33,381 nucleotides of DNA from a virus: the IMG/VR virus record IMGVR_UViG_3300032083_001659, positions 1 to 33,381 of that record; one strand, written 5' to 3'. This document shows positions 3,901 to 26,315 of the stretch, one piece after another; position 1 is the stretch's first letter, and each line of letters starts with the position of its first letter. A program made the position numbers and the translations under genes. The notes beneath the pieces were generated by a model, which did no database searches, was not told the DNA's origin, and saw nothing but the letters and a program-made list of their open reading frames with translations.

Positions 3901-4764
3901 TCAGCTGACAGAGATAGAATTTATCTGTGTAGAAGCAGCAAGATCAAACAGATCAAACACTTCACTCCTTCCTAAACTCCTTTGACCTGTGGTTCTATCA
4001 GCAGCATAAGAGTTCCAATCCACAGCAGCAAAGACAGATAAGACATAAGGTTTATCCACACCGTCTTTGACCTTGATAAGTCTTCTGCTTGTGCTACTCT
4101 CATCACTTACCTGTGGTGTAGTAATGTCTCCACAGCGAGAACCGTGAGTGGTAAAAGTAAAGTCAGCCTCGGTGTGATCCTTGACAAACTCAAAGGAACT
4201 ACTGGTCTTCGTTGGCTTCCAGTCAGGTCTATCATAGTCCCGTCTCTCCCACACTTGCAGAACCGTCTTGACTTTACAACCATCAGGTCCCTCAAACTTT
4301 ACATCACCAAAGAACCACTCCTCTATCAGGTGTAATTTCTTTTCTACATCTGTGATAAGTGAAGGCTTCCGCATTCCAGCACCAACCAAGAAAACTATGT
4401 AGTCTCCTTCCTTGGCTGCTTTGTTTAGGAACTGCTTGGTTAGTCGTTGTCTCTTGCCCCAAGGTGGGTTGCCTATGAAGACACGACCTCTCTTGTAGCC
4501 AAGGTTTAGTTTGAGGTAGTCTTGTTTCTTTACCGAGCGGTGCTTTGGTTGTAAGTCGTAGGCTCTAACCGGAGTGTGAGGAGACTGCTTCATCAGTTCA
4601 TCAACGAAGACACCTGCTCCTGCTGATGGCTCAACAAATTCAGTAGCCGATCTAAACCAAGGCTTATTACGGATGCGAGACAAGACCAAGTCGGTCATAG
4701 TTTTTGTTGTGTAGAATTGTTCCAGCCCTACACTACGGCTGTTTGTGCTTTTTGTTTTAGTCAT
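3901..4764 (-). CDS. N6-adenine DNA methyltransferase, 287 aa
   Basis: Motif I (FVEPSAGAGVF, residues 43-53) forms the S-adenosylmethionine loop, D70 in RAYDLQ is the motif II acidic residue, and NPPW (99-102) is the catalytic motif IV. This order, I before IV, is that of gamma-type (Eco57I/N6_Mtase-like) enzymes that methylate adenine N6. The N-terminus (LEQFYTT) matches the 'E-Q-Y/F-x-T' motif X. About 120 C-terminal residues show no known domain and may recognise the target. Start at 4764, weak GGAT ribosome site. It probably protects phage DNA or blocks host restriction; the target is unknown. It lies in the early leftward unit after a hairpin terminator, so expression may need read-through. 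Confidence 0.9.
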   Translation of the reverse strand: MTKTKSTNSRSVGLEQFYTTKTMTDLVLSRIRNKPWFRSATEFVEPSAGAGVFVDELMKQSPHTPVRAYDLQPKHRSVKKQDYLKLNLGYKRGRVFIGNPPWGKRQRLTKQFLNKAAKEGDYIVFLVGAGMRKPSLITDVEKKLHLIEEWFFGDVKFEGPDGCKVKTVLQVWERRDYDRPDWKPTKTSSSFEFVKDHTEADFTFTTHGSRCGDITTPQVSDESSTSRRLIKVKDGVDKPYVLSVFAAVDWNSYAADRTTGQRSLGRSEVFDLFDLAASTQINSISVS

Positions 4765-4826: not shown

Positions 4827-6287
4827 TTAATCCCAGTCCAACTCGTTGATAGTTGGGTAGGTTCTTTTTCTGCTGTGATAGTCTTCTCGTCTTACGAATG
4901 AAGAACCATAACTGCGGCTCGCAGCATAGTCGGCTGCTTCATAATAGAAGAACACACTACCACAGTCCTTTACATTCTGCTCCGTAGAGGGGTCCCAGAT
5001 CAAAGACAAGGCTTCCTGCGGAGACGGTAGGGTAAGGACAGCGGCACGGAGTTCCCCGCTCATCAATAGCCTGTGAAGGAGACGAGAGAAGATCTGTGGA
5101 GAGTTGCGGTAATTCCCATAGTTCTCACTATCGCAACACAAGTAGCCGGAGATCCAACCAGAGTTAAAACCTTTGGTTGAGAGTTCATCAACACAGTTGT
5201 GTACCCACTCAATTGTCTCGTCTATTAGATCACTATTCATAGGATCCTTCCAGTTTATTCTTCTCTCTGCTGTGTCAAGGCCCGTCCTCAAAACAAGTCC
5301 TCTCATCACATCTTCATTAGCAGCCATAACCTTCGCAACCTCTATGAAGATAGGCCACAGGTTATTGCGGTGCTCCTCCATAGTAGATCCGTCAAAGAAT
5401 TTCTGCCATAGAAAGAATGCATTATTGGTAGGACACTTGTAGCCGTTCATTAGATCCAGTCGCTCTTCCTCAAACAATAGGTTCTCCATTACCCATTCCT
5501 TACAGTCGTGTTGCCAAGCCTCCAAGCGATAGGCCGGAGGAACCACAGCCTCAAAGCCACGGTCATTACCAACTTCCTTATCCATCTCACGGAGGCGAGA
5601 ACGGATCAACTGTAAGTCATTCAGCAACTTATTGTTCTTTTGGTTCAGGTAAACATCACTATCCTGAATTGATCCAATTGTCTCTTGGTAGGTCTGTGCA
5701 ACCACATAAGTAAAAGGGAATGGGAATTGTTTGTGATCCATCTCACAACGGAAACCTACTGGTAGGTTAAGCTTCTCTCCTACCAACTTGGTGTAGAGAG
5801 GTAAGAGGTTGAGACTACTACGGATTAGCCAAAGCAATTGTTCGTTGTGTTCTACCACCTCTGCCTTGTTGGAACCCATAGGTAAGAGACCACACTTACC
5901 AATTGCTCGTTCCAATCCAACGGTGTTGTGATAAACGATAGTGTGTTTGCTTGACCCACCGTCGTGTAAAGAGTGGAGGACACAAACCTGATAGATAGGG
6001 TTAGGCTTATCCTCACTCTTGGTAGAGACAATAGGCATAGCACTTGACTTATGGCTATGACGATCACGGGCATAGTCTCCGCAAAGGAAGATCCAATCCG
6101 CTTTACCATCCCAAGCATCCCACTCTTTACCACCGTTCTGGTTCTTGTAGAATGTTTTGAGTTTCCTTACGGTAAGATCCTTATGGATCTCCGTTAGAAT
6201 TACTGTGTTCGCATCCTTAAGCTGACGGATGACAGCGGACTTGACGGGTGTTAGAAGGGCACCCACCTTATAATTATTAACAGACAT
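4827..6287 (-). CDS. Unknown protein, 486 aa
   Basis: Start ATG 6287 (MSVNNYKVG) is chosen because TTGGAGAAAAATT precedes it, the same leader as the gene starting at 6800; an ATG at 6344 lacks one. I do not recognise a family. The N-terminal third is alpha/beta and Lys/His-rich (WDAWDGKADWIFLCGDYARD at about residues 58-77). The middle is helical with many Glu/Asn, and the C-terminus is acidic (TINELDWD). No Walker A, polymerase, helicase or metal-finger motif is visible. It is the largest gene in the early leftward unit, where phages usually keep replication or host-takeover functions, and no replication protein is recognisable elsewhere. A novel replication or takeover protein is therefore possible, but this is positional inference. 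Confidence 0.85.
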   Translation of the reverse strand: MSVNNYKVGALLTPVKSAVIRQLKDANTVILTEIHKDLTVRKLKTFYKNQNGGKEWDAWDGKADWIFLCGDYARDRHSHKSSAMPIVSTKSEDKPNPIYQVCVLHSLHDGGSSKHTIVYHNTVGLERAIGKCGLLPMGSNKAEVVEHNEQLLWLIRSSLNLLPLYTKLVGEKLNLPVGFRCEMDHKQFPFPFTYVVAQTYQETIGSIQDSDVYLNQKNNKLLNDLQLIRSRLREMDKEVGNDRGFEAVVPPAYRLEAWQHDCKEWVMENLLFEEERLDLMNGYKCPTNNAFFLWQKFFDGSTMEEHRNNLWPIFIEVAKVMAANEDVMRGLVLRTGLDTAERRINWKDPMNSDLIDETIEWVHNCVDELSTKGFNSGWISGYLCCDSENYGNYRNSPQIFSRLLHRLLMSGELRAAVLTLPSPQEALSLIWDPSTEQNVKDCGSVFFYYEAADYAASRSYGSSFVRREDYHSRKRTYPTINELDWD

Positions 6288-6336
6288 AATTTTTCTCCAA
6301 GGGATTATCGCACCCAGTTGCGGCCTGTTAGGACAC

Positions 6337-6356
6337 GGTCTCATTATGCCGAGACC
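6337..6356. repeat. GGTCTC/GAGACC hairpin between leftward genes
   Basis: GGTCTC (6337-6342) and GAGACC (6351-6356) are a perfect 6-bp inverted repeat with an 8-base spacer, 16 bases past the stop of the 142-aa gene. There is no T-run on the minus strand, so an RNA-processing or partial-termination role is as likely as true termination. Confidence 0.4.
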
Positions 6357-9797: not shown

Positions 9798-11426
9798 ATG
9801 AAAGCAAGTAAAGTAGCAGAGATCTATGATGCACATAAAGAGTACTGGGAGCATCAAAGACAAGAATTACAAAGGTACAAAGCAGCCTACGAGTGTGAGT
9901 TCTGGGACAACCGAGGAGCCAACTTTCTTCTTCACGGAGAACAAATGCTTAACATACAAACAAGTGATGCCTATGGCTACATAGAAAGTTTTATTGCTTC
10001 TCTATTTGCCAAGAACCCTTCGGTTGTTTTAAAGAAAGGACTTCGCAACCAAGGACACCACGAGAAAGCACAAGCAATTGCTAATGACTTCTTGGTAAGA
10101 GCAAGACAAGAAATAGAAAATGCTGCGAGGATGTCTTTGATCTATCCTATGGCTTTCTTTAAGCTGGTGCCTAATGATGACGAAGACGAACTCTACGACA
10201 AGATCTATCCCATAGCAGTTCCTTGCTGGGACATTATCGTTGATCGTAATGCTTCTCGTTGGGACAAGTCCAAGTTTGTAGGGCACCGCTACTACATTAC
10301 AATAGACGAAGCCAAAGCCAAGTTTGGAAATAAACAATTCCACGGAGTTCACAAAGAAGACTTCTTCCACCCTGACTATCAGTACAGCCCAGACGAACCA
10401 GCACAGTATCAAGAGTATGTTGAGATCGTTGAGATGTTTGATATGGAGTTAGACGAATTGATCTTCTACTCTCCACAACACGGACAAGGCAATAACATTT
10501 TAGAACGAGCAAACTTTATTCCTTTTCGCACAGTCAATAACAAACCAGTTGTTCCTGTCGTGCCTCTTTACTTTAACCGTATCCCTGATCGTCCTCTTGA
10601 CGGTTATTCTTCTATGAAGAGGATCTACGATCAACTCTATGAAATAAATGTAATTAGATCATTTCAGGCTAATGCTGTCCGTAAAGCCTCTCGTCAGTAT
10701 CTTGTAAAAGCAGGAGCATTAGACGAAGAGGATATGGCTAAACTTACAGCAGGGATAGACGGATTGTTTATTGAGGTTGATGACGAAGACTTGGCTGGTG
10801 TTATGCGAGCGGTTCCACAAAACCCAACACCACCAGAGTTAGAACAATACTATCAAAATGTAAATGCTGATAAAGACAAAGGATCTCTCCTCGCACCGTT
10901 TACCCGTGGTGAAGCACTCAAAGCAACCGCAAGTGAAATTGTAGCCTTGGCAAGTTATTCTGCTACTGAACTTGGTAGAATGGCTCGTGAACGAGATGCT
11001 GCTATTGAGTTGCTGGCTTTTACTTATCTGTCTATGCTTGCTACATTTATGGACGATGGAGGCGACAACATTATCTTTCTTGATAATAAATTACAAAATG
11101 TAAGACCTGCCGACATCAAAGGAGACTTTGAGATCTTCGCACAAGATCAAGCAGCAACACCTTTAAGCGAGCAAGTAAAGAACCAACAACTTCTCGCAAA
11201 CATACCGACATTAGTTCAGTTAGGTGTACCTCAACGAAAGATCTTGGAACAAGTGGTTAGACAATTAGGACTACCCGAAGACTTCCTTGACACACCACCG
11301 CAACAAGCACAGGTAGGTCAGCCACAGTCAGGCATAGAAGAAGGGCCACCTTCTTCACCAGAGGAAGCAATAGCAGCCACAGCACCACAAAACATTAAAC
11401 CATTTATTCCCGGAGGCAACCAATAA
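9798..11426 (+). CDS. Portal protein, 542 aa
   Basis: ATG 9798 follows AGGAGAAATAA. It sits directly after the large terminase and is of normal portal length. The N-terminal helical part (KVAEIYDAHKEYWEHQRQEL), central beta region (YPIAVPCWDIIVDRNASRWD), a conserved 'VPVVPLYFNRIPDRPLDGYS' segment and 'GEALKATASEIVALASYSAT' in the helical stem are typical of podoviral portals. The tail of the protein is Pro/Gln-rich (from about residue 500). The dodecameric ring forms the DNA entry vertex and binds terminase and the tail adaptor. Its stop overlaps the methyltransferase ATG by one base. Confidence 0.9.
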   Translation: MKASKVAEIYDAHKEYWEHQRQELQRYKAAYECEFWDNRGANFLLHGEQMLNIQTSDAYGYIESFIASLFAKNPSVVLKKGLRNQGHHEKAQAIANDFLVRARQEIENAARMSLIYPMAFFKLVPNDDEDELYDKIYPIAVPCWDIIVDRNASRWDKSKFVGHRYYITIDEAKAKFGNKQFHGVHKEDFFHPDYQYSPDEPAQYQEYVEIVEMFDMELDELIFYSPQHGQGNNILERANFIPFRTVNNKPVVPVVPLYFNRIPDRPLDGYSSMKRIYDQLYEINVIRSFQANAVRKASRQYLVKAGALDEEDMAKLTAGIDGLFIEVDDEDLAGVMRAVPQNPTPPELEQYYQNVNADKDKGSLLAPFTRGEALKATASEIVALASYSATELGRMARERDAAIELLAFTYLSMLATFMDDGGDNIIFLDNKLQNVRPADIKGDFEIFAQDQAATPLSEQVKNQQLLANIPTLVQLGVPQRKILEQVVRQLGLPEDFLDTPPQQAQVGQPQSGIEEGPPSSPEEAIAATAPQNIKPFIPGGNQ

Positions 11427-12898
11427 TGGATACATTACTTACTGGAAACTCATTTGACCGGTTAAAAGAATTACCGGATAATAGTGTGGGGGCACTTGTC
11501 ACAGATCCTCCTTACCTCAGAAATTTTATGGGGAACGACTGGGACAAACAAAGTAGCCCTGCTGCTGATCCAGAGTTCTGGAAGTTGGTGCTACAAAAGT
11601 TAAAGCCGGGAGCACACGGTTTAGTGTTCGGTCATAGCAGACAACACCATAGAGTTATGGTTGCTTTGGAAGATGCTGGCTTTGAGATAAGAGACTGTAT
11701 GATGTGGATGTACGGTCAAGGCTTTCCCAAGAACCATAATGTAGGTAAGGCTGTTGATAAATTACAAGGCAACAAGAGAACTGTTGTTGGAACAAAAGCA
11801 GACTTCTCACTTGACGGTGCCAAGAGAAAAGCAGAGAACCACCAGACCCATCAGGAAACTGATAATGCGGGTCATAAACCCGGCTACAAGAAAGGCTGGG
11901 ACACAGAGGTAAGTGTAGGTAGTTCTACTTGGGAAGGGTGGGGCACAGCACTCAAACCTGCCTATGAGCCAATTATTATGGTTCGCAAACCATTAGGTAA
12001 AAAACTAACCGTAGCAAAGAATTGTTTAGAGCACGGTGTAGGTGCGATCAACATAGATGATAGTAGAATTGGTTGCACGGATAAAAATAAATTTCCTGTG
12101 GGAGACTACACCACAGACACAACGGTAGGTAAGATCCGCCCAACCACAAGAACAACAGACCCTAACCCAACCGGTAGGTATCCTGCTAATGTTATTCTAT
12201 CACACCACGAAGACTGTGTCAAGGTAGGAACAGTAGAAGAAACCTACAACATAAATAAAACTGACGGTGCTTCTTTCTTCGGTCAAGAGAAATGCCCTGA
12301 CTATGAAAGTGTAGAACAGAAAGTCAGTCAAGATGTTTATGAGTGTAGTGATGACTGCCCTATCAAAACTCTTAACGAGCAAGCACCACAAGTCGGTTCG
12401 TTGTTTAAAGCGACCAGAAAGAAAGACACATCAGGGGGCTCTGGTGATAGTTGGACCAACTCGGGCAAACAAGCAGGTGAGGACAACGGCTTACACGACG
12501 GTCTTGGGGGTGCTTCTCGTTTCTTTTATTGTGCGAAAATAAACAAGAAAGAAAGAAACTGGGGCTGTGATGGATTACCTACAAGACAGTCTATTGGTGG
12601 TGGAGGAACTAACCACACCAAGGCTGATGCTTATGGTAGTGTCAAGGCACCAGCAAAGAACCACCACCCAACGGTCAAGCCTGTAAGTCTTATGTACTAT
12701 CTTACAAAACTAATAGCACCGAAAGGTGAGACCGTGCTTGACCCTTTTATGGGTTCAGGTTCTACGGGGATGGCTTGTGTCCTCAACGACAATAACTTTA
12801 TTGGAATTGATATGGACCCCGACTATGTTGAGATCAGCAAGCACAGAATAAATTATGTTCGTTTTAATAAGGAGAAAATAAAAAATGGGCTTTCATAA
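11426..12898 (+). CDS. Beta-class DNA methyltransferase (N6-A or N4-C), 490 aa
   Basis: Motif IV TDPPY (26-30) comes near the N-terminus and motif I DPFMGSGSTG (439-448) near the C-terminus, the order of beta-class amino-methyltransferases; HHPTVKPVSLM just before it is motif X/XI-like, and GIDMDPDY is motif II. A long middle region (about 100-400) with WGTALKPAYEPIIMVRKP, GRYPAN and SRFFYCAKINKKERNWG matches phage/prophage 'site-specific methyltransferases' and includes a Cys-rich stretch. GGAGG precedes ATG 11426, and the portal stop overlaps by one base. It is embedded in the head operon and so expressed late, when it could modify DNA before packaging. Whether it makes 6mA or 4mC cannot be read from DPPY with confidence. 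Confidence 0.93.
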   Translation: MDTLLTGNSFDRLKELPDNSVGALVTDPPYLRNFMGNDWDKQSSPAADPEFWKLVLQKLKPGAHGLVFGHSRQHHRVMVALEDAGFEIRDCMMWMYGQGFPKNHNVGKAVDKLQGNKRTVVGTKADFSLDGAKRKAENHQTHQETDNAGHKPGYKKGWDTEVSVGSSTWEGWGTALKPAYEPIIMVRKPLGKKLTVAKNCLEHGVGAINIDDSRIGCTDKNKFPVGDYTTDTTVGKIRPTTRTTDPNPTGRYPANVILSHHEDCVKVGTVEETYNINKTDGASFFGQEKCPDYESVEQKVSQDVYECSDDCPIKTLNEQAPQVGSLFKATRKKDTSGGSGDSWTNSGKQAGEDNGLHDGLGGASRFFYCAKINKKERNWGCDGLPTRQSIGGGGTNHTKADAYGSVKAPAKNHHPTVKPVSLMYYLTKLIAPKGETVLDPFMGSGSTGMACVLNDNNFIGIDMDPDYVEISKHRINYVRFNKEKIKNGLS

Positions 12899-13418
12899 AC
12901 TAAAATGTAGAGACTGCAACCAAACCTTTGAGGTGTGGCAGAGAGACAAGTGGGATAGTGTAAACAAAACCACTTACAAAAACTTTGAGTTAGACGAGAT
13001 CTGGTGCGGACACGAAGAGTGTTTTAACACAGACAACCTTGACGAAGACTATGTAGGGTGTGGATCACAAGACACTTACAAAGTTCTTACAGGAGCAAGT
13101 TTCTCAATTAGCAGCAAAGGACTTAACGGAGACCACCAAGGTTTCTATTCGGCTGATCTTGGCCGTAGGTTTAACAATAAGTACGAAGCCTATGAGTATG
13201 CGGAACAAAATGGTTTTAAGCCTATCTCACAGGTAAACGAAGACGATGTTTTACAACGAGGCTATGACTTGGAGAAACAAGATGCAGCCGATATGAAAAA
13301 AATAAAAGAACTAACAGCCGCAGGTAAATCCAAAGAGGAAGCCTATGGCGAAACCTTCTCTGTAAACACTCTCAAAGAACGAGGGATGTTAGACAGCAGC
13401 ATTAAAAGTGGAGACTAA
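12885..13418 (+). CDS. Unknown protein with N-terminal zinc-ribbon pattern, 177 aa
   Basis: ATG 12885 lies 14 bases inside the methyltransferase gene, with GGAGAAAATAAAAA before it. The N-terminus (LKCRDCNQTFEV, then WCGHEECF and VGCGSQ) has CxxC and later cysteines/histidine like FmdB-type zinc ribbons. The middle (SFSISSKGLNGDHQGFYSADLGRRF) resembles small phage zinc-ribbon proteins; the C-terminus is a charged helix. Function is unknown; with its position after portal and methyltransferase it may be a head-assembly or DNA-contact factor. Confidence 0.85.
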   Translation: MGFHKLKCRDCNQTFEVWQRDKWDSVNKTTYKNFELDEIWCGHEECFNTDNLDEDYVGCGSQDTYKVLTGASFSISSKGLNGDHQGFYSADLGRRFNNKYEAYEYAEQNGFKPISQVNEDDVLQRGYDLEKQDAADMKKIKELTAAGKSKEEAYGETFSVNTLKERGMLDSSIKSGD

Positions 13419-13421
13419 ATT

Positions 13422-13979
13422 ATGGCTATTAGAGAAATGAAAAACGAACCTATGGTGGTTGATATGCCCCAAGGTCCAGCGATAGGAAGTGATCCTATGG
13501 TTGCTGAAAAAGAAATGGAATACAACGATGCTTTTGACGGGATGATGGCGGCAGCAGCACCACAAGGAAACTTTGGTGAAACAGCCTACAACAGACTGGG
13601 TGAAAGCCTCAACCGTGTGTTAGAACTGTTTGGTCCAGAAGCAAAAGACATCAACCCCGTTGACGGAGACCAAACAAGACTATCAGCACAAATTACTGCC
13701 GCCCTTGCTATGATCGCACAGGCAGCAAAAGAAGCAGGACTGGATCGCTTTGTAGTTGATCTTGATGCTATTACTGATGACCGCTCGTTAGAGATGGCTG
13801 CTGGTAAATTAGATGCTCTTGCTGAAAATGAGAACTTTAACACTTTCCTCCGCTCTACTCCTCGTGAAGTAGAAGTAGAGGTAGACACCGGCGAACTCGC
13901 AGAAATGGGAGCACCGGTGGAAATAGAAGAAGAGGAAGAAATTGATATTGACAACCTCTTCGCTTCCAGACTTTCATAG
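13422..13979 (+). CDS. Unknown acidic head-region protein, 185 aa
   Basis: ATG 13422 follows GGAGACTAAATT. The protein is strongly acidic, opens with Met/Pro-rich sequence (MAIREMKNEPMVVDMPQGPA), has helical central segments and ends in EEEEEIDIDNLFASRLS. No family is recognised. Position between portal and scaffold/capsid genes, acidity and helicity fit an assembly chaperone or minor head protein. It is followed by AGGAG for the scaffold gene. Confidence 0.85.
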   Translation: MAIREMKNEPMVVDMPQGPAIGSDPMVAEKEMEYNDAFDGMMAAAAPQGNFGETAYNRLGESLNRVLELFGPEAKDINPVDGDQTRLSAQITAALAMIAQAAKEAGLDRFVVDLDAITDDRSLEMAAGKLDALAENENFNTFLRSTPREVEVEVDTGELAEMGAPVEIEEEEEIDIDNLFASRLS

Positions 13980-13989
13980 GAGAAACTAA

Positions 13990-14898
13990 ATGGAAACCAA
14001 TACAACTGCGACTGGTACCGCAACGGATAGTACCACCACCAACGATGTAGGGCCTAATGTAAAGGACCCACAAGACACAAGGACACACAGATATGAAGCA
14101 CTTACACAAGCCAAAGCCGCACAAAATTCCCAGACCGGGAACACCGAAGGATCAACCCAAGAAAGCACCGCAGGATCCCAAACACCCCGATCAACAGAAA
14201 CCGAAGCCGGTGAGAATAACACCGACTTTTGGTCTGCAAAGGTGGAAGGAGATGCTTTTGACGGGACACATAAAGGTGTTAATTGGAACGACACCGTTTC
14301 CGGATTGCCTGATGATGCTCAAAAATTATTAGCAAACCTACGGGCTGACTACACAAAGAAGACACAAGATCTTGCCCGTCAGCGAAAAGCATTAGAGAGC
14401 GAACGGAAGGCTTTACTAAACGAAGACTACCTTGCGAACATTAACGAGAAAGCAAACCAAGAGATCCAATTTGATCCGTTTGATAATGATAGTGTAAATG
14501 CTCGCATAGAACAAGAAGTCGCAAAGCGAATGCAACAAATGATCCAGCCATTACAACAAGAGTATGAACTACAACAACGACAAATGGCTCTGGATAATTT
14601 TAAGTCAGCACACCCAGACCTCCAAGACTACAAGACTGAAATAGCAAAACTGCTTATGACAGATCAGTCCCTCAACTTGGAGCGAGCCTACTACATAGTA
14701 AAGGGTAAAGCCAACACAGACAAAGCAGCGGCTTACGAAAAAGAATTACAAACTTACAAACAAGCAGCCAGAGAGTACGGCCTAAAAGTTGGCGGCGGTC
14801 GCATAAACAATCCGTCCAACAACATACCAGAACAGGTAAAAAAAGGCGGTCCTTATGAAATTTACAAGTGGTTGCAAGGACAGAAAAGAAATGGATAA
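13990..14898 (+). CDS. Scaffolding-like protein, 302 aa
   Basis: ATG 13990 follows TAGGAGAAACTAA. The first 75 residues are Thr/Ser/Gln-rich and disordered. They are followed by FWSAKVEGDAFDGTHKGVNW and a long coiled-coil region (about 105-230: YTKKTQDLARQRKALESERK, then VAKRMQQMIQPLQQEYELQQ), and a basic C-terminus (GGPYEIYKWLQGQKRN). Disordered N-terminus, coiled coil and basic tail just before the major capsid gene is the standard scaffold arrangement: it directs capsid assembly and then leaves. There is no sequence motif for enzymatic activity. Confidence 0.8.
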   Translation: METNTTATGTATDSTTTNDVGPNVKDPQDTRTHRYEALTQAKAAQNSQTGNTEGSTQESTAGSQTPRSTETEAGENNTDFWSAKVEGDAFDGTHKGVNWNDTVSGLPDDAQKLLANLRADYTKKTQDLARQRKALESERKALLNEDYLANINEKANQEIQFDPFDNDSVNARIEQEVAKRMQQMIQPLQQEYELQQRQMALDNFKSAHPDLQDYKTEIAKLLMTDQSLNLERAYYIVKGKANTDKAAAYEKELQTYKQAAREYGLKVGGGRINNPSNNIPEQVKKGGPYEIYKWLQGQKRNG

Positions 14899-15034
14899 AC
14901 TATTTATGATAGAAAACAACACCCCCCGTTTTAGGTCAAATGGGACACGGTGTCTTACGAACTCCTACGGGAGCACTCTTACAGACCACAAGCCTACTTT
15001 AAACAAAAAGGAGAAGAATTATGGCTATTTCTAA
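14891..15034 (+). CDS. Possible 47-aa ORF bridging scaffold and capsid genes
   Basis: The only gene-like frame in the 122-base gap before the capsid gene starts at ATG 14891 (AAGGA ten bases upstream), overlaps the scaffold stop and ends at a TAA 14 bases inside the capsid gene. The product (MDKLFMIENNTPRFRSNGTR and onward, ending KKEKNYGYF) resembles nothing I know. It contains the capsid ribosome site, so its translation could couple to capsid expression. Chance is a fair alternative. Confidence 0.3.
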   Translation: MDKLFMIENNTPRFRSNGTRCLTNSYGSTLTDHKPTLNKKEKNYGYF

Positions 15035-16594: not shown

Positions 16595-16627
16595 TTCGCA
16601 CGGATTTGGCTAATTTTTAGCCTTAAT

Positions 16628-16662
16628 GGGTTGGGGTAGGCAACTACCCCACCCTCTTATTA
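16628..16662 (+). terminator. Strong terminator after capsid/decoration genes
   Basis: TGGGGTAG (16632-16639) and CTACCCCA (16644-16651) pair around a GCAA tetraloop (GNRA type). Flanking GGG/CCC extend the stem past one bulged T, followed by TCTTATTA. A smaller GGCTA/TAGCC hairpin (about 16608-16624) precedes it. It probably terminates part of the transcripts, giving higher capsid than tail mRNA. Confidence 0.8.
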
Positions 16663-16677
16663 CAAGGAGAAGAAACT

Positions 16678-22666: not shown

Positions 22667-23410
22667 ATGGCTAATGAATTACAACAAAAACAAAACTATG
22701 ATCTACTTGGATCTGCCGCACAAATGGGAACCGCAGGAGCGGGGATCGGGTTTGCTGTTGGTGGTCCTGTCGGTGCTGCCGTAGGAGCAGGGATCGGTGG
22801 TGTAGGTGGTTTGATCTACGAAGGCTTACAAGGCCCCAGCGACTACGAACAACAAAGACAAGAAGACATAGAAGAACTAAAACGAAGACAAGATCTTGGT
22901 GCTCTTGGTTTGACTGACGAAGAACGATCAGTCTTGCAAGCACAATTGGTAGATCCAATTAGAGCACAACAGAGAGGTGCTGCCCTACAACAAGCAGGAA
23001 CTATGGCTGCTATTGGTGGTGGTCCAGCAACCGCAGCAAGGATGGCTATTGGAGAACAGCAGAGAATAGCAGAACAACTACAACCTTCTATGATAGAAAT
23101 TCAGCGGGCTGACTTGGCAAAGGCAAGAGCCGAAGAAGAACTGTTGAGAGCATTACAGAAAGAACAGATGGAAGATGTAGAACGAGCCAAGCAACAAGCC
23201 TATGGTGCTATGCTAAATGCAGCTGCTTCCGGTATGGGAATAAGATCAGCCGCACAGAAAGAACTTGTTGTTGCCGGTCAAGCAAAAGCAGCGGAAGAGT
23301 TTAACAAAGCATTTAGCGAATATGCTATGTCTCCTGATGCTGACCCTGCTATGACTATGCTACTGATGGGCAACTATGGTTTCCCTCCACCGGTTCAGGA
23401 AAAAAAGTAA
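22667..23410 (+). CDS. Glycine-zipper internal virion protein, 247 aa
   Basis: ATG 22667 follows AATAGGAGAATAAATT. Residues about 17-52 (GTAGAGIGFAVGGPVGAAVG and onward) are a long glycine zipper, able to insert into membranes. A Gln/Arg-rich helical part follows (QRQEDIEELKRRQDLG; AIGEQQRIAEQLQPSMIEIQ; AAEEFNKAFSEYAM). This composition fits short internal or ejection proteins that pass out of the capsid and line the DNA channel in the host envelope. The last codons are GAA-AAA-AAG-TAA, forming an A-AAA-AAG slippery site in the correct frame, so a -1 fusion to the next gene is possible (see findings). Confidence 0.8.
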   Translation: MANELQQKQNYDLLGSAAQMGTAGAGIGFAVGGPVGAAVGAGIGGVGGLIYEGLQGPSDYEQQRQEDIEELKRRQDLGALGLTDEERSVLQAQLVDPIRAQQRGAALQQAGTMAAIGGGPATAARMAIGEQQRIAEQLQPSMIEIQRADLAKARAEEELLRALQKEQMEDVERAKQQAYGAMLNAAASGMGIRSAAQKELVVAGQAKAAEEFNKAFSEYAMSPDADPAMTMLLMGNYGFPPPVQEKK

Positions 23411-23436
23411 TAGGGCAGCCGACTAATGTGGTGCCC
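23401..23436 (+). promoter_or_regulatory. Putative -1 ribosomal frameshift signal
   Basis: A-AAA-AAG (23401-23407) lies in the reading frame of the 247-aa gene one codon before its TAA. A hairpin of GGGCA (23413-23417) and TGCCC (23432-23436) starts five bases after it, with a 14-base loop. A -1 shift continues into the 299-aa gene's frame, giving about 553 residues. No upstream Shine-Dalgarno-like stimulator is obvious. Confidence 0.5.
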
Positions 23437-24327
23437 GTAGAAAGAACGGAGCCGACTGTCCCACAAGCACCTTCACCAAACCAAACTGACGGATTGTTTC
23501 CGGAAGGCGGAGTTATGCCTATACAAACAGTAGCACCAAAACCACCGTTGGGTACACCTTTGGAAAGAACAGCAACACCAAACTTCCAACAGTTTCTACA
23601 AGTGCCGGGACAACCAGCAGGACAGGGTCAGGCTACACCATTAGGATCTATGGGGATAGACAGCAAGGGCAGAGACTACTTCTTCCAGAACTATCCTGAT
23701 AGTAAAGCAGGAACCTTTGGTAGGATCAGCGGTGTAAGCACGGTGACAAAGAAAGAGCAAGAAAGAATTTTAACAAAGATGAGAACTGTTGAGGAACTTG
23801 CCTTCCGGTACCCAGAAGAGTTTGGTGGGCTGGATAGAAAGAGACAATTGTTTAACCAAAGTCAAGCGGTTCTTGACGACATCGTAATCCAAAAGTCTAT
23901 GACTAAAATGGAACCCAGACTTGTTTATGAAACAAGACCAGACGGATCACAGGGCCAACAGATGAAACTGGTAGAAGTGGAAGTTCCCAACCCAGACTGG
24001 AAAGTTGAGAAGTCTATTTTCCAAAGAGACGAGAACGGACAAATTGTCCCCGAACAAAGACAAGACTATTTTTACCTATCACTTGCATCGCAAGGAAAAG
24101 ATAGGGAGGCAGAACTCTATGAGAAACTATTTACCATAGACGAAGCCATAGGTGAAATAGAGACTGCTATGGAAGAAGGCTTCCCAGTCAACACCGACTT
24201 TATTATCAAAGAGAAAAAAGAAATGATACAACAATTACTTACACTTGGCTACGACCAAACACAGATCAACCAGATCTTACAGCAGTTTAGCACAAGACCA
24301 GAACTTTACCAAGGAGCGAACGAATGA
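23428..24327 (+). CDS. Helical virion protein, 299 aa; start uncertain
   Basis: The frame can start at GTG 23428, but there is no AGGAG-type site before it, unlike nearly every other gene here. ATG 23515 has GGAAGG seven bases upstream and is an alternative (270 aa). The frame is also open backward to the slippery site at 23401-23407, so it may be made only as the C-terminal part of a -1 fusion. The first 50 or so residues are Pro/Gln-rich, like a linker; the rest is helical and charged (FGRISGVSTVTKKEQERILT; IDEAIGEIETAMEEGFPVNT). It is probably an internal or ejection protein by position; no family is recognised. Its stop overlaps the next ATG (ATGA). Confidence 0.75.
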   Translation: MVPVERTEPTVPQAPSPNQTDGLFPEGGVMPIQTVAPKPPLGTPLERTATPNFQQFLQVPGQPAGQGQATPLGSMGIDSKGRDYFFQNYPDSKAGTFGRISGVSTVTKKEQERILTKMRTVEELAFRYPEEFGGLDRKRQLFNQSQAVLDDIVIQKSMTKMEPRLVYETRPDGSQGQQMKLVEVEVPNPDWKVEKSIFQRDENGQIVPEQRQDYFYLSLASQGKDREAELYEKLFTIDEAIGEIETAMEEGFPVNTDFIIKEKKEMIQQLLTLGYDQTQINQILQQFSTRPELYQGANE

Positions 24328-26315
24328 ATGTAATAGAAAGATATTTAGCAGGGATGGAAGTTGATCCTAACGACCCTGTCTTGCAGACCTACCTGATGCA
24401 GCAAAGAATTTACGGAGGAGGCACACCTTCACAACAGGAGTTCCGCAACACCGTAATTCCAAGAGACCCAGTCCCATCAATTCCAAACCAAGGACCTATC
24501 GCACCACCGGATATGTTTACACCAGTAGAAGGTGTGCCCCAAGAAGTTATGGACCCACGAGGACAAGCAAGACGGAGAAGACAAACAGAACGGTTGCCTG
24601 ATGTTCCTATGGGAGCACAACCCAACATAGACACACCACAAACAACTGTGTTCCGTAGGAGTAATGCTTACCTTGCTGCTTACAACCAAGCCAAGACAAG
24701 TCAGTACTTCCAAATGCTTGACCTGTTGTTAAAGCAACAAACGGTAGAGCAAGGTAATTTAGACATTATCCGTAAGGCTATTGCCGATATTGATGATAGA
24801 ATTGCTGACTATGAAAAGGCTGCTGCTGAATTTGAGACACCCAAAAGTTCTGGTGGTCGTGGATCAAGCACGGTAAAGAACTTTCGTTTAGAAGCAGAGG
24901 CAGAGATCAACAGACTTGCTCTCAAAAGTTTAGAACAACAGACAAGACTAACGGAACAAGTTGGTAGAGACACACAAGCACCCACCTCTACACTATCATT
25001 CTTTACAGGTGATAGTAGCAACCGTGTAAATTCTATTAATGCTAATCCAAGTGATATGTCTGCTCTTATCAGTCAGGTGCGACAGCCTACTTATGTGAAC
25101 CAGTTTGCTTCTATCACTAACACGACAGCAAGAAACGAAGCGACAGGAGAACTAATCCGTCAGGTGATGAGAGAAATGGTTGCCGCTGGTGTTCCATCAA
25201 CAGAGCAAGAGAAAGTCTTTGACCTAATTGCTGCGAACTATGGTGGGCTTGCAAGTTCTACACCAGCCAGTCGCTCTTCTCAATTCTCTAATGCTGCTGT
25301 TGCTTCACAGCGAGAAGCAGAGATGCAGAGAAAACTGGGAGATGTTTATGATCTCAAAGATGCTTCCACAGTTCAGGTGCCTGCTTCACAGATGAGAGAT
25401 GGTGTGCCTACACTCAACCCCAACCAGTATGTTAAGACAACATTTAGCGATGGTACAATAGACTACTATCTTACCAACGAGATGGCTATTCGCCAGAAGG
25501 CAGAGGAAGCACAAGCCTTTGGCGGCGGTGGTAGAACCAGACCAACAATTACACAGTCCGCTGCTGAAAAAGAATTAGACAATTTTATTATTGGGAACAT
25601 TAGAGACGACGGTAAGTTTGTGTTAAATGAAAACACAGGAGGCGGTGCTGATCTTGTAGCCAAGGCTGCCGGTAAGGATCTGGGAGAACTTACACAAGAA
25701 GACATAGACAGAGTTTTACGAGATAGAATTGGAGCAAGTGTTAGAGTTCAGCAAGCACAAGCCGTAGGAGAACTAACACAACAACGATCTGCTTACAGCG
25801 ATAGACTTGCTGCTGGTCTCCGTGGGATGTCTCCCGAAGAGTACTTGGGTAGGGCAGCACAAATGCGAGACAAACCTTTCGCTGCTGGAACTACACCAGA
25901 AGAAGCAAGAAGACAAATGACACAGAGCCCGTCAAGGATGGATGCCGAGAAGTTCTATGCTGATCTTACACCACAGCAAAGACTACAAGCAGACTATATG
26001 TCGCAGGCAACAGCGATGGCAAAGAGAGGGGATAGACAAACACTTGATAAAGACGAGCAAATGCTTTACTCAACTATGATAGAGAAGTTAGAGAAGGGAG
26101 AACTTACCCGACCTGAACTCTACGATGCTATGATGAAACAAGCCTATGATCTTTACGGAGCAAGTGACATAGAGAAAGCACAGAAGAAAACAAAGTCAGC
26201 CTTGACCTCAATTTACTTGGACGACATAGCCCAGTTCCAATTGACCTCTGGTGCTACAAGTATAGATGCCCCAAAGATAGAAAACCGAAACCAACCAATA
26301 GAACCAACGGAGTAA
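24324..26315 (+). CDS. Large helical internal virion protein, 663 aa
   Basis: ATG 24324 overlaps the upstream stop (ATGA), with AAGGAG at 24310-24315. The protein is dominated by charged helices and Gln/Arg-rich linkers (MLDLLLKQQTVEQGNLDIIR; IADIDDRIADYEKAAAEF; KNFRLEAEAEINRLALKSL), with heptad-like coiled coils about residues 135-230. No catalytic motif is visible. Position before the giant internal protein and composition fit an ejection protein of the T7 gp15/P22 gp16 kind. It is not similar enough for me to name the family. Confidence 0.8.
   Translation: MNVIERYLAGMEVDPNDPVLQTYLMQQRIYGGGTPSQQEFRNTVIPRDPVPSIPNQGPIAPPDMFTPVEGVPQEVMDPRGQARRRRQTERLPDVPMGAQPNIDTPQTTVFRRSNAYLAAYNQAKTSQYFQMLDLLLKQQTVEQGNLDIIRKAIADIDDRIADYEKAAAEFETPKSSGGRGSSTVKNFRLEAEAEINRLALKSLEQQTRLTEQVGRDTQAPTSTLSFFTGDSSNRVNSINANPSDMSALISQVRQPTYVNQFASITNTTARNEATGELIRQVMREMVAAGVPSTEQEKVFDLIAANYGGLASSTPASRSSQFSNAAVASQREAEMQRKLGDVYDLKDASTVQVPASQMRDGVPTLNPNQYVKTTFSDGTIDYYLTNEMAIRQKAEEAQAFGGGGRTRPTITQSAAEKELDNFIIGNIRDDGKFVLNENTGGGADLVAKAAGKDLGELTQEDIDRVLRDRIGASVRVQQAQAVGELTQQRSAYSDRLAAGLRGMSPEEYLGRAAQMRDKPFAAGTTPEEARRQMTQSPSRMDAEKFYADLTPQQRLQADYMSQATAMAKRGDRQTLDKDEQMLYSTMIEKLEKGELTRPELYDAMMKQAYDLYGASDIEKAQKKTKSALTSIYLDDIAQFQLTSGATSIDAPKIENRNQPIEPTE

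Follow-up and report, generated by a model that had tools for sequence, protein, structure and literature searches.

The window analysed here spans a complete IMG/VR record (33,381 bases) and comes from an uncultured, probably short-tailed phage. Its plus strand carries a tailed-phage structural module (Table 1), in which several proteins without assigned function separate the 753-aa virion protein from a late group of four reading frames that we call A, B, C and D. Isolate-phage matches of the major capsid protein are distant and fall among Mx8-type and other phages; Mx8 has been grouped with podoviruses (PMC10386132). The start of C overlaps the stop of B (ATGA), and C has a strong Shine-Dalgarno sequence of its own (AAGGAG). 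The order A(-B)-C-D is shared by the window and a second contig, L004, while relatives show A, C and a large gene.

Other features of the record lie outside the A-B junction. The DNA methyltransferase gene sits between the portal and the next structural gene and looks like a recent insertion; in the same place, contigs L003-L005 show no methyltransferase match, and a gene of the 177-aa type directly follows the portal. Within the structural module, true gaps reach a sizeable length only at 14899-15020 (122 nt) and 16595-16677 (83 nt), flanking the capsid gene and its neighbour. Their counterparts in L004 measure 141 and 83 nt, and these gaps may hold promoters or terminators. C begins with a Pro- and Gln-rich extension of about 97 residues (24324-24614) that is missing from the C of L004, the match to which starts only at residue 98. 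On the minus strand, a pair of genes at 3901-4764 and 4827-6344 precedes the structural module, one with methyltransferase-like and phrog_5172 matches and the other, of 505 aa, without relatives in PHROGs.

Table 1. Features of the window and, in the last two rows, of contig L004
Feature	Position	Strand	Remarks
Large terminase	8241	+	
Portal	9798	+	
DNA methyltransferase	11426-12898	+	phrog_67 match
Major capsid protein	15021	+	
SU10-adaptor-like protein	16678	+	
Virion protein, 753 aa	18072	+	
Gene A, 247 aa	22667-23410	+	Gly-rich N-terminus, long helices; probable gp14-like ejection protein
Slippery heptamer A_AAA_AAG	23401-23407	+	zero frame, 0 nt from stop
ORF B, 306 codons from shift point	23407-24327	+	-1 frame; homologue in L004
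Zero-frame stop TAA, then second in-frame stop TAG (23411)	23408-23413	+	
Pro/Thr/Gln-rich linker	23408-23514	+	coding-like in -1 frame only
Stimulatory-type hairpin GGGCA...TGCCC	23413-23436	+	5-nt spacer; -12.5 kcal/mol (24 nt)
Candidate internal B start GGAAGGCGGAG-TT-ATG (ATG 23515)	23502-23517	+	start-like Shine-Dalgarno
Gene C, 663 aa	24324-26315	+	probable gp15-like ejection protein
Gene D, 2021 aa	26320-32385	+	probable gp16-like ejection protein, on position and size
L004: ORF B homologue	13272-14183		303 open -1 codons; 38% identical
L004: hairpin	13279-13311		10-bp stem CCCCTGTTGC/GCGACAGGGG, 6 nt after heptamer

The A-B junction in two genomes

The junction between A and B has the layout of a -1 frameshift site. 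A ends in GAA AAA AAG TAA (GAA at 23399, TAA at 23408), with seven consecutive A's at 23400-23406. An earlier note on this DNA had read this ending as a slippery heptamer, in frame against the stop, that together with a GGGCA/TGCCC hairpin five bases on and an open -1 frame would yield a fusion of about 553 aa by programmed frameshifting. Each of these elements is present as described. Past A, the -1 frame continues as GTA ATA GGG CAG... and is free of stops to 24327, so that the 247 codons of A and the 306 of B add up to a fusion of 553 aa.

Both heptamer and spacing agree with established rules. Stimulatory structures typically lie about 5-8 nt past the heptamer, and the top three of 64 heptamers tested with stimulators in E. 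coli are C_CC.A_AA.G, G_GG.A_AA.G and A_AA.A_AA.G (PMC4066793). The heptamers of the window and L004 both belong to these three, in a ranking that may not be that of the phage host, and the spacers in the two genomes are 5 and 6 nt. The window hairpin has a z-score of -2.7 when folded as 28 nt but only -1.1 in a 53-nt context; compared with other stretches of the genome and its module, its strength puts it in the top 0.4% at a window length of 30 nt but only in the top 2.5% at 40 nt. Given this moderate rank and the z-score in context, the hairpin is only suggestive from this genome alone. The junction matched no Rfam family.

A second, diverged genome repeats the arrangement from different sequences. 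Scanning viral contigs with the capsid protein gave 35 loci, among which a single contig outside the window's own species, L004, spans the junction with B. Its A is 70% identical to that of the window and its B 38%. L004 A is longer by 14 codons and ends in GCG-GGA-AAG-TAA, which sets G_GGA_AAG directly against TAA. The L004 hairpin is stable, at -17.1 kcal/mol alone and -18.2 kcal/mol in context (z = -4.9), was equalled by none of 200 shuffles and ranks among the strongest 0.3% of 40-nt windows. In the B frame the first ATG, GTG or TTG comes only at 13389, 116 nt past the A stop.

Because heptamer letters and hairpin sequence both differ between the two genomes, the signal is conserved in kind and rebuilt in sequence, and this recurrence in a diverged genome makes it very likely real. 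Heptamer, hairpin, open -1 frame and the coding signature of the linker are all present in the window, and all four recur in L004; in both independent genomes that have the two ORFs, the site is kept. The frameshift proposed in the earlier note is thus supported. The pair is a clean illustration of selection acting on mechanism rather than letters.

From the A stop up to the first ATG of B, the DNA resembles coding sequence. Scored by codon statistics that we derived from the genes of the respective genome, this linker reaches, per codon in the -1 frame, +0.15 in the window (36 codons) and +0.29 in L004 (39 codons), set against averages of +0.33 and +0.38 for genuine coding stretches. Out-of-frame stretches reach the score of the linker in 0.4% of cases in the window and 0% in L004. 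The probability that the linker is open by accident is 7.5% in the window and 4.5% in L004. Richness in Pro, Thr and Gln is common to both genomes, and the linker ahead of ATG 23515 encodes all or part of the predicted tryptic peptides VIGQPTNVVPVER and TEPTVPQAPSPNQTDGLFPEGGVMPIQTVAPKPPLGTPLER.

The combination of signals is specific to the A-B junctions. We examined 605 distinct ORFs of at least 100 aa from all family contigs. An X_XXY_YYZ heptamer abuts the stop in eight of them and a top-three heptamer in three, two of which are the A-B junctions; in 226, the -1 frame beyond the stop stays open for 80 codons or more. Requiring, besides this open -1 frame, a heptamer close to the stop, a hairpin at least as strong as -12 kcal/mol and no start (ATG) overlapping the stop left only the two A-B junctions (2/605). 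One candidate, GGGAAAG against a TAG before the portal ATG in L021 (1133-1142), was rejected as a frameshift site, the portal being in the same frame. In L023 (4990-5030) and L017 (2030-2045), AAAGGGN heptamers abut stops ahead of long open -1 frames, with an ATG overlapping the stop; these are more likely Shine-Dalgarno-like or coincidental.

Relatives that lack B also lack the slip site. A broader A profile recovered 46 A-family loci (35 distinct members), in which A genes nearly always lie directly upstream of C. In A-family relatives other than L004, B is absent and C comes directly after A, often through TAATG, usually with its own ATG at or just past the A stop; none of these B-less relatives has a slippery heptamer against the A stop. 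Neither single-protein scans of viral contigs with A, B and L004 B nor viral profile scans with A+A', B+B' and C+C' recovered a third B-bearing genome, so that L004 supplies the only B relative found. Scans of bacterial and archaeal genomes gave no match, and the isolate-phage collection held no relatives of A, B or the portal.

Other routes to B

The alternative that survives best dispenses with the frameshift altogether, but we consider it unlikely. A and B would then be separate proteins, with B translated from an internal ATG (23515 in the window, 13389 in L004) after about 110 untranslated nucleotides. In both genomes, the first in-frame ATG of B does lie about 110 nt into the frame behind a good Shine-Dalgarno, reading AAGGAG-CCA-ATG in L004. 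By duplex energy, the pairing ranks in the top 1-6% of internal ATGs at 23515 and in the top 1% at L004 13389, a strength comparable to that of real starts, and B alone would measure 270 aa in the window and 264 aa in L004. The aligned spacing is short in both genomes, however, at 4 and 2 nt, whereas nearly all real starts have 5-11 nt, and an untranslated gap of this size contrasts with intergenic gaps that elsewhere in these modules are mostly ≤11 nt. Nor does separate translation explain two different top-class heptamers set against the stop, two different hairpins at 5-6 nt spacing, or the openness and -1-frame coding statistics of a stretch that would be untranslated.

These observations change the standing of the internal start rather than that of the frameshift. 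The earlier note had named a separate B start with a ribosome site as evidence against a fusion and had rated ATG 23515 too low; a start-like site is in fact partly present, at 23515 and at L004 13389, so that B could be translated without any frameshift and is probably also made on its own from ATG 23515. Since heptamers, hairpins and the coding linker upstream are left unaccounted for by such a start, it would supply an extra product and not a replacement for A-B.

Stop-coupled re-initiation offers a far less probable route. Ribosomes terminating on A would restart at GTG 23428/23431 or at a non-standard AUA overlapping the stop, a remnant of TAATG. The TAATG at the A-C junction of many relatives does produce a -1 frame relation, and the window has TAATA at its stop with a GTG 20 nt further. 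Yet that GTG lacks a Shine-Dalgarno, as the earlier note had already said: pairing at 23428 is -3.3 kcal/mol, which equals the mean of internal ATGs. L004 has ACA in place of the ATG and offers no GTG or TTG before ATG 13389.

Two explanations built on the homopolymer are more remote still and are rejected because the L004 junction has none. The A7 run of the window could invite transcriptional slippage, with a subset of mRNAs gaining an extra A that brings B into frame, but the GGGAAAG of L004 contains no run long enough for the polymerase to slip, and yet the frames of A and B are related as in the window and the hairpin downstream is stronger still. The same run, in records that are both metagenome assemblies, could likewise reflect an assembly or sequencing indel that split one continuous A-B gene, but the frame change recurs in two independent records, and an indel predicts neither a stop directly behind a top-class heptamer nor a hairpin, both of which are present in each genome.

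Proposed products and comparison with known systems

A programmed -1 frameshift at A_AAA_AAG that would fuse A to B is the reading we favour, and judging from the sequences of the two genomes we put its probability at about 0.85. When A is read to its UAA, the product would be the abundant, main 247-aa protein. The hairpin 5 nt downstream would pause the ribosome, and in a fraction of ribosomes two lysyl-tRNAs would leave A_AAA_AAG and pair again one base back, on AAA_AAA, a tandem slippage. The slipped ribosome would then read the -1 frame through the Pro/Thr-rich linker into B to yield a minor 553-aa A-B protein, and the efficiency of the shift would set the ratio of A to A-B. With B probably also started at 23515, three proteins may arise from the two ORFs: A, A-B and B.

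Gene order and size, together with the hydrophobic Gly-rich N-terminus of A and its all-helical model, suggest an ejection (internal core) role for A, C and D in a short-tailed phage. A is probably the small, gp14-like member: its gene lies late in the structural module and is small, with a medium-sized and then a very large one behind it. Its Gly-rich N-terminal region is hydrophobic with GxxxG repeats and gives way to long helices, and its structure model is of moderate confidence (pLDDT 73). Against the PDB this model gave generic helical-bundle matches only, and its best match in BFVD is without a name in the tables. The AlphaFold model of B is poor (pLDDT 42), and at the B C-terminus a UBA-like match stays below threshold. 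None of the four proteins gave a credible hit in PDB profile searches, and D had no Pfam or PDB match. Sequence and fold searches thus neither confirm nor exclude the ejection role. If A, C and D do act in ejection, a minority of the small ejection protein would carry a C-terminal extension in the form of A-B, which may be packaged in the virion.

The history of the junction can be sketched from the relatives. There, an ATG that overlaps the stop of A often opens the next gene, in the -1 frame; the same position in the B-bearing lineage reads ATA (window) or ACA (L004), as though the start had been lost and the slip site now bridged the frame relation instead. We tentatively propose, at somewhat less than even odds, that the DNA-ejection apparatus includes a recoding module with three products (A, A-B, B), in which a minority of pore-type subunits would carry a frameshift-added arm of 300 aa. 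In one lineage, B would have been inserted between A and C, and heptamer and hairpin would have replaced the TAATG start. Were the site confirmed in an ejection module, phages would use recoding also to control how much of each form of an ejectosome subunit is made. Mutating the heptamer would provide a simple handle on the function of the extension. Gene callers, for their part, would split A-B in two and give B the wrong start.

The gene group resembles known ejection modules, and its signal resembles known frameshift sites. T7 gp14/gp15/gp16 and P22 gp7/gp20/gp16 follow a small-medium-large order like the 247, 663 and 2021 aa found here, and the small T7 and P22 ejection proteins, of about 180-240 aa, contain a hydrophobic Gly-rich segment as A does; D exceeds the gp16-like proteins listed, which span 609-1337 aa (PMC8954989). 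That review of ejection proteins does not mention frameshifting, and a full-text literature search for 'ribosomal frameshift' with 'ejection proteins' returned no paper. Known -1 frameshifts in phages occur in capsid genes (T7/T3, A2, kuraviruses) and in tail chaperones (PMC5009743, PMC9965538). From this literature we take the mechanism to be a known one in a gene context, that of an ejection-type module, which appears to be undescribed.

Among long-tailed phages, the tail assembly chaperone pair precedes the tape measure gene, and the window module has no such pair: A and B follow the adaptor and tail-type genes and precede C and D, and neither matched a chaperone family in PHROGs or Pfam, which bears out the view of the earlier note that this is not the usual tail-chaperone frameshift. 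The lambda G/GT pair also uses a -1 frameshift, and its heptamer is G_GGA_AAG, as in L004. A heptamer of the X_XXY_YYZ type with a hairpin 5-8 nt downstream also serves IS911/IS3 OrfA-OrfAB and E. coli dnaX, and the IS elements, like A-B, fuse two overlapping ORFs (PMC4066793, PMC5009743); these are transposase or DNA polymerase genes, with proteins unrelated to A-B.

Closest in outcome are virion proteins with a minor extended form. In T7/T3 gene 10A/10B and the capsid gene of Lactobacillus phage A2, both cited in PMC5009743, a -1 shift near the stop likewise produces a minor, C-terminally extended virion protein; the T7 slip site differs (G_GU..), and the extension is added to the major capsid protein or to some other major protein of the virion, whereas here the site lies in an A-C-D ejection-type module. 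Kuravirus-like phages (the YF01 group) share with L004 a GGGAAAG near the stop of a virion gene, leading into the -1 frame, and their extension, from 353 to 892 aa, is long, as is that of A-B; they extend the major capsid protein, and the window and L004 an A-like protein upstream of C and D (PMC9965538).
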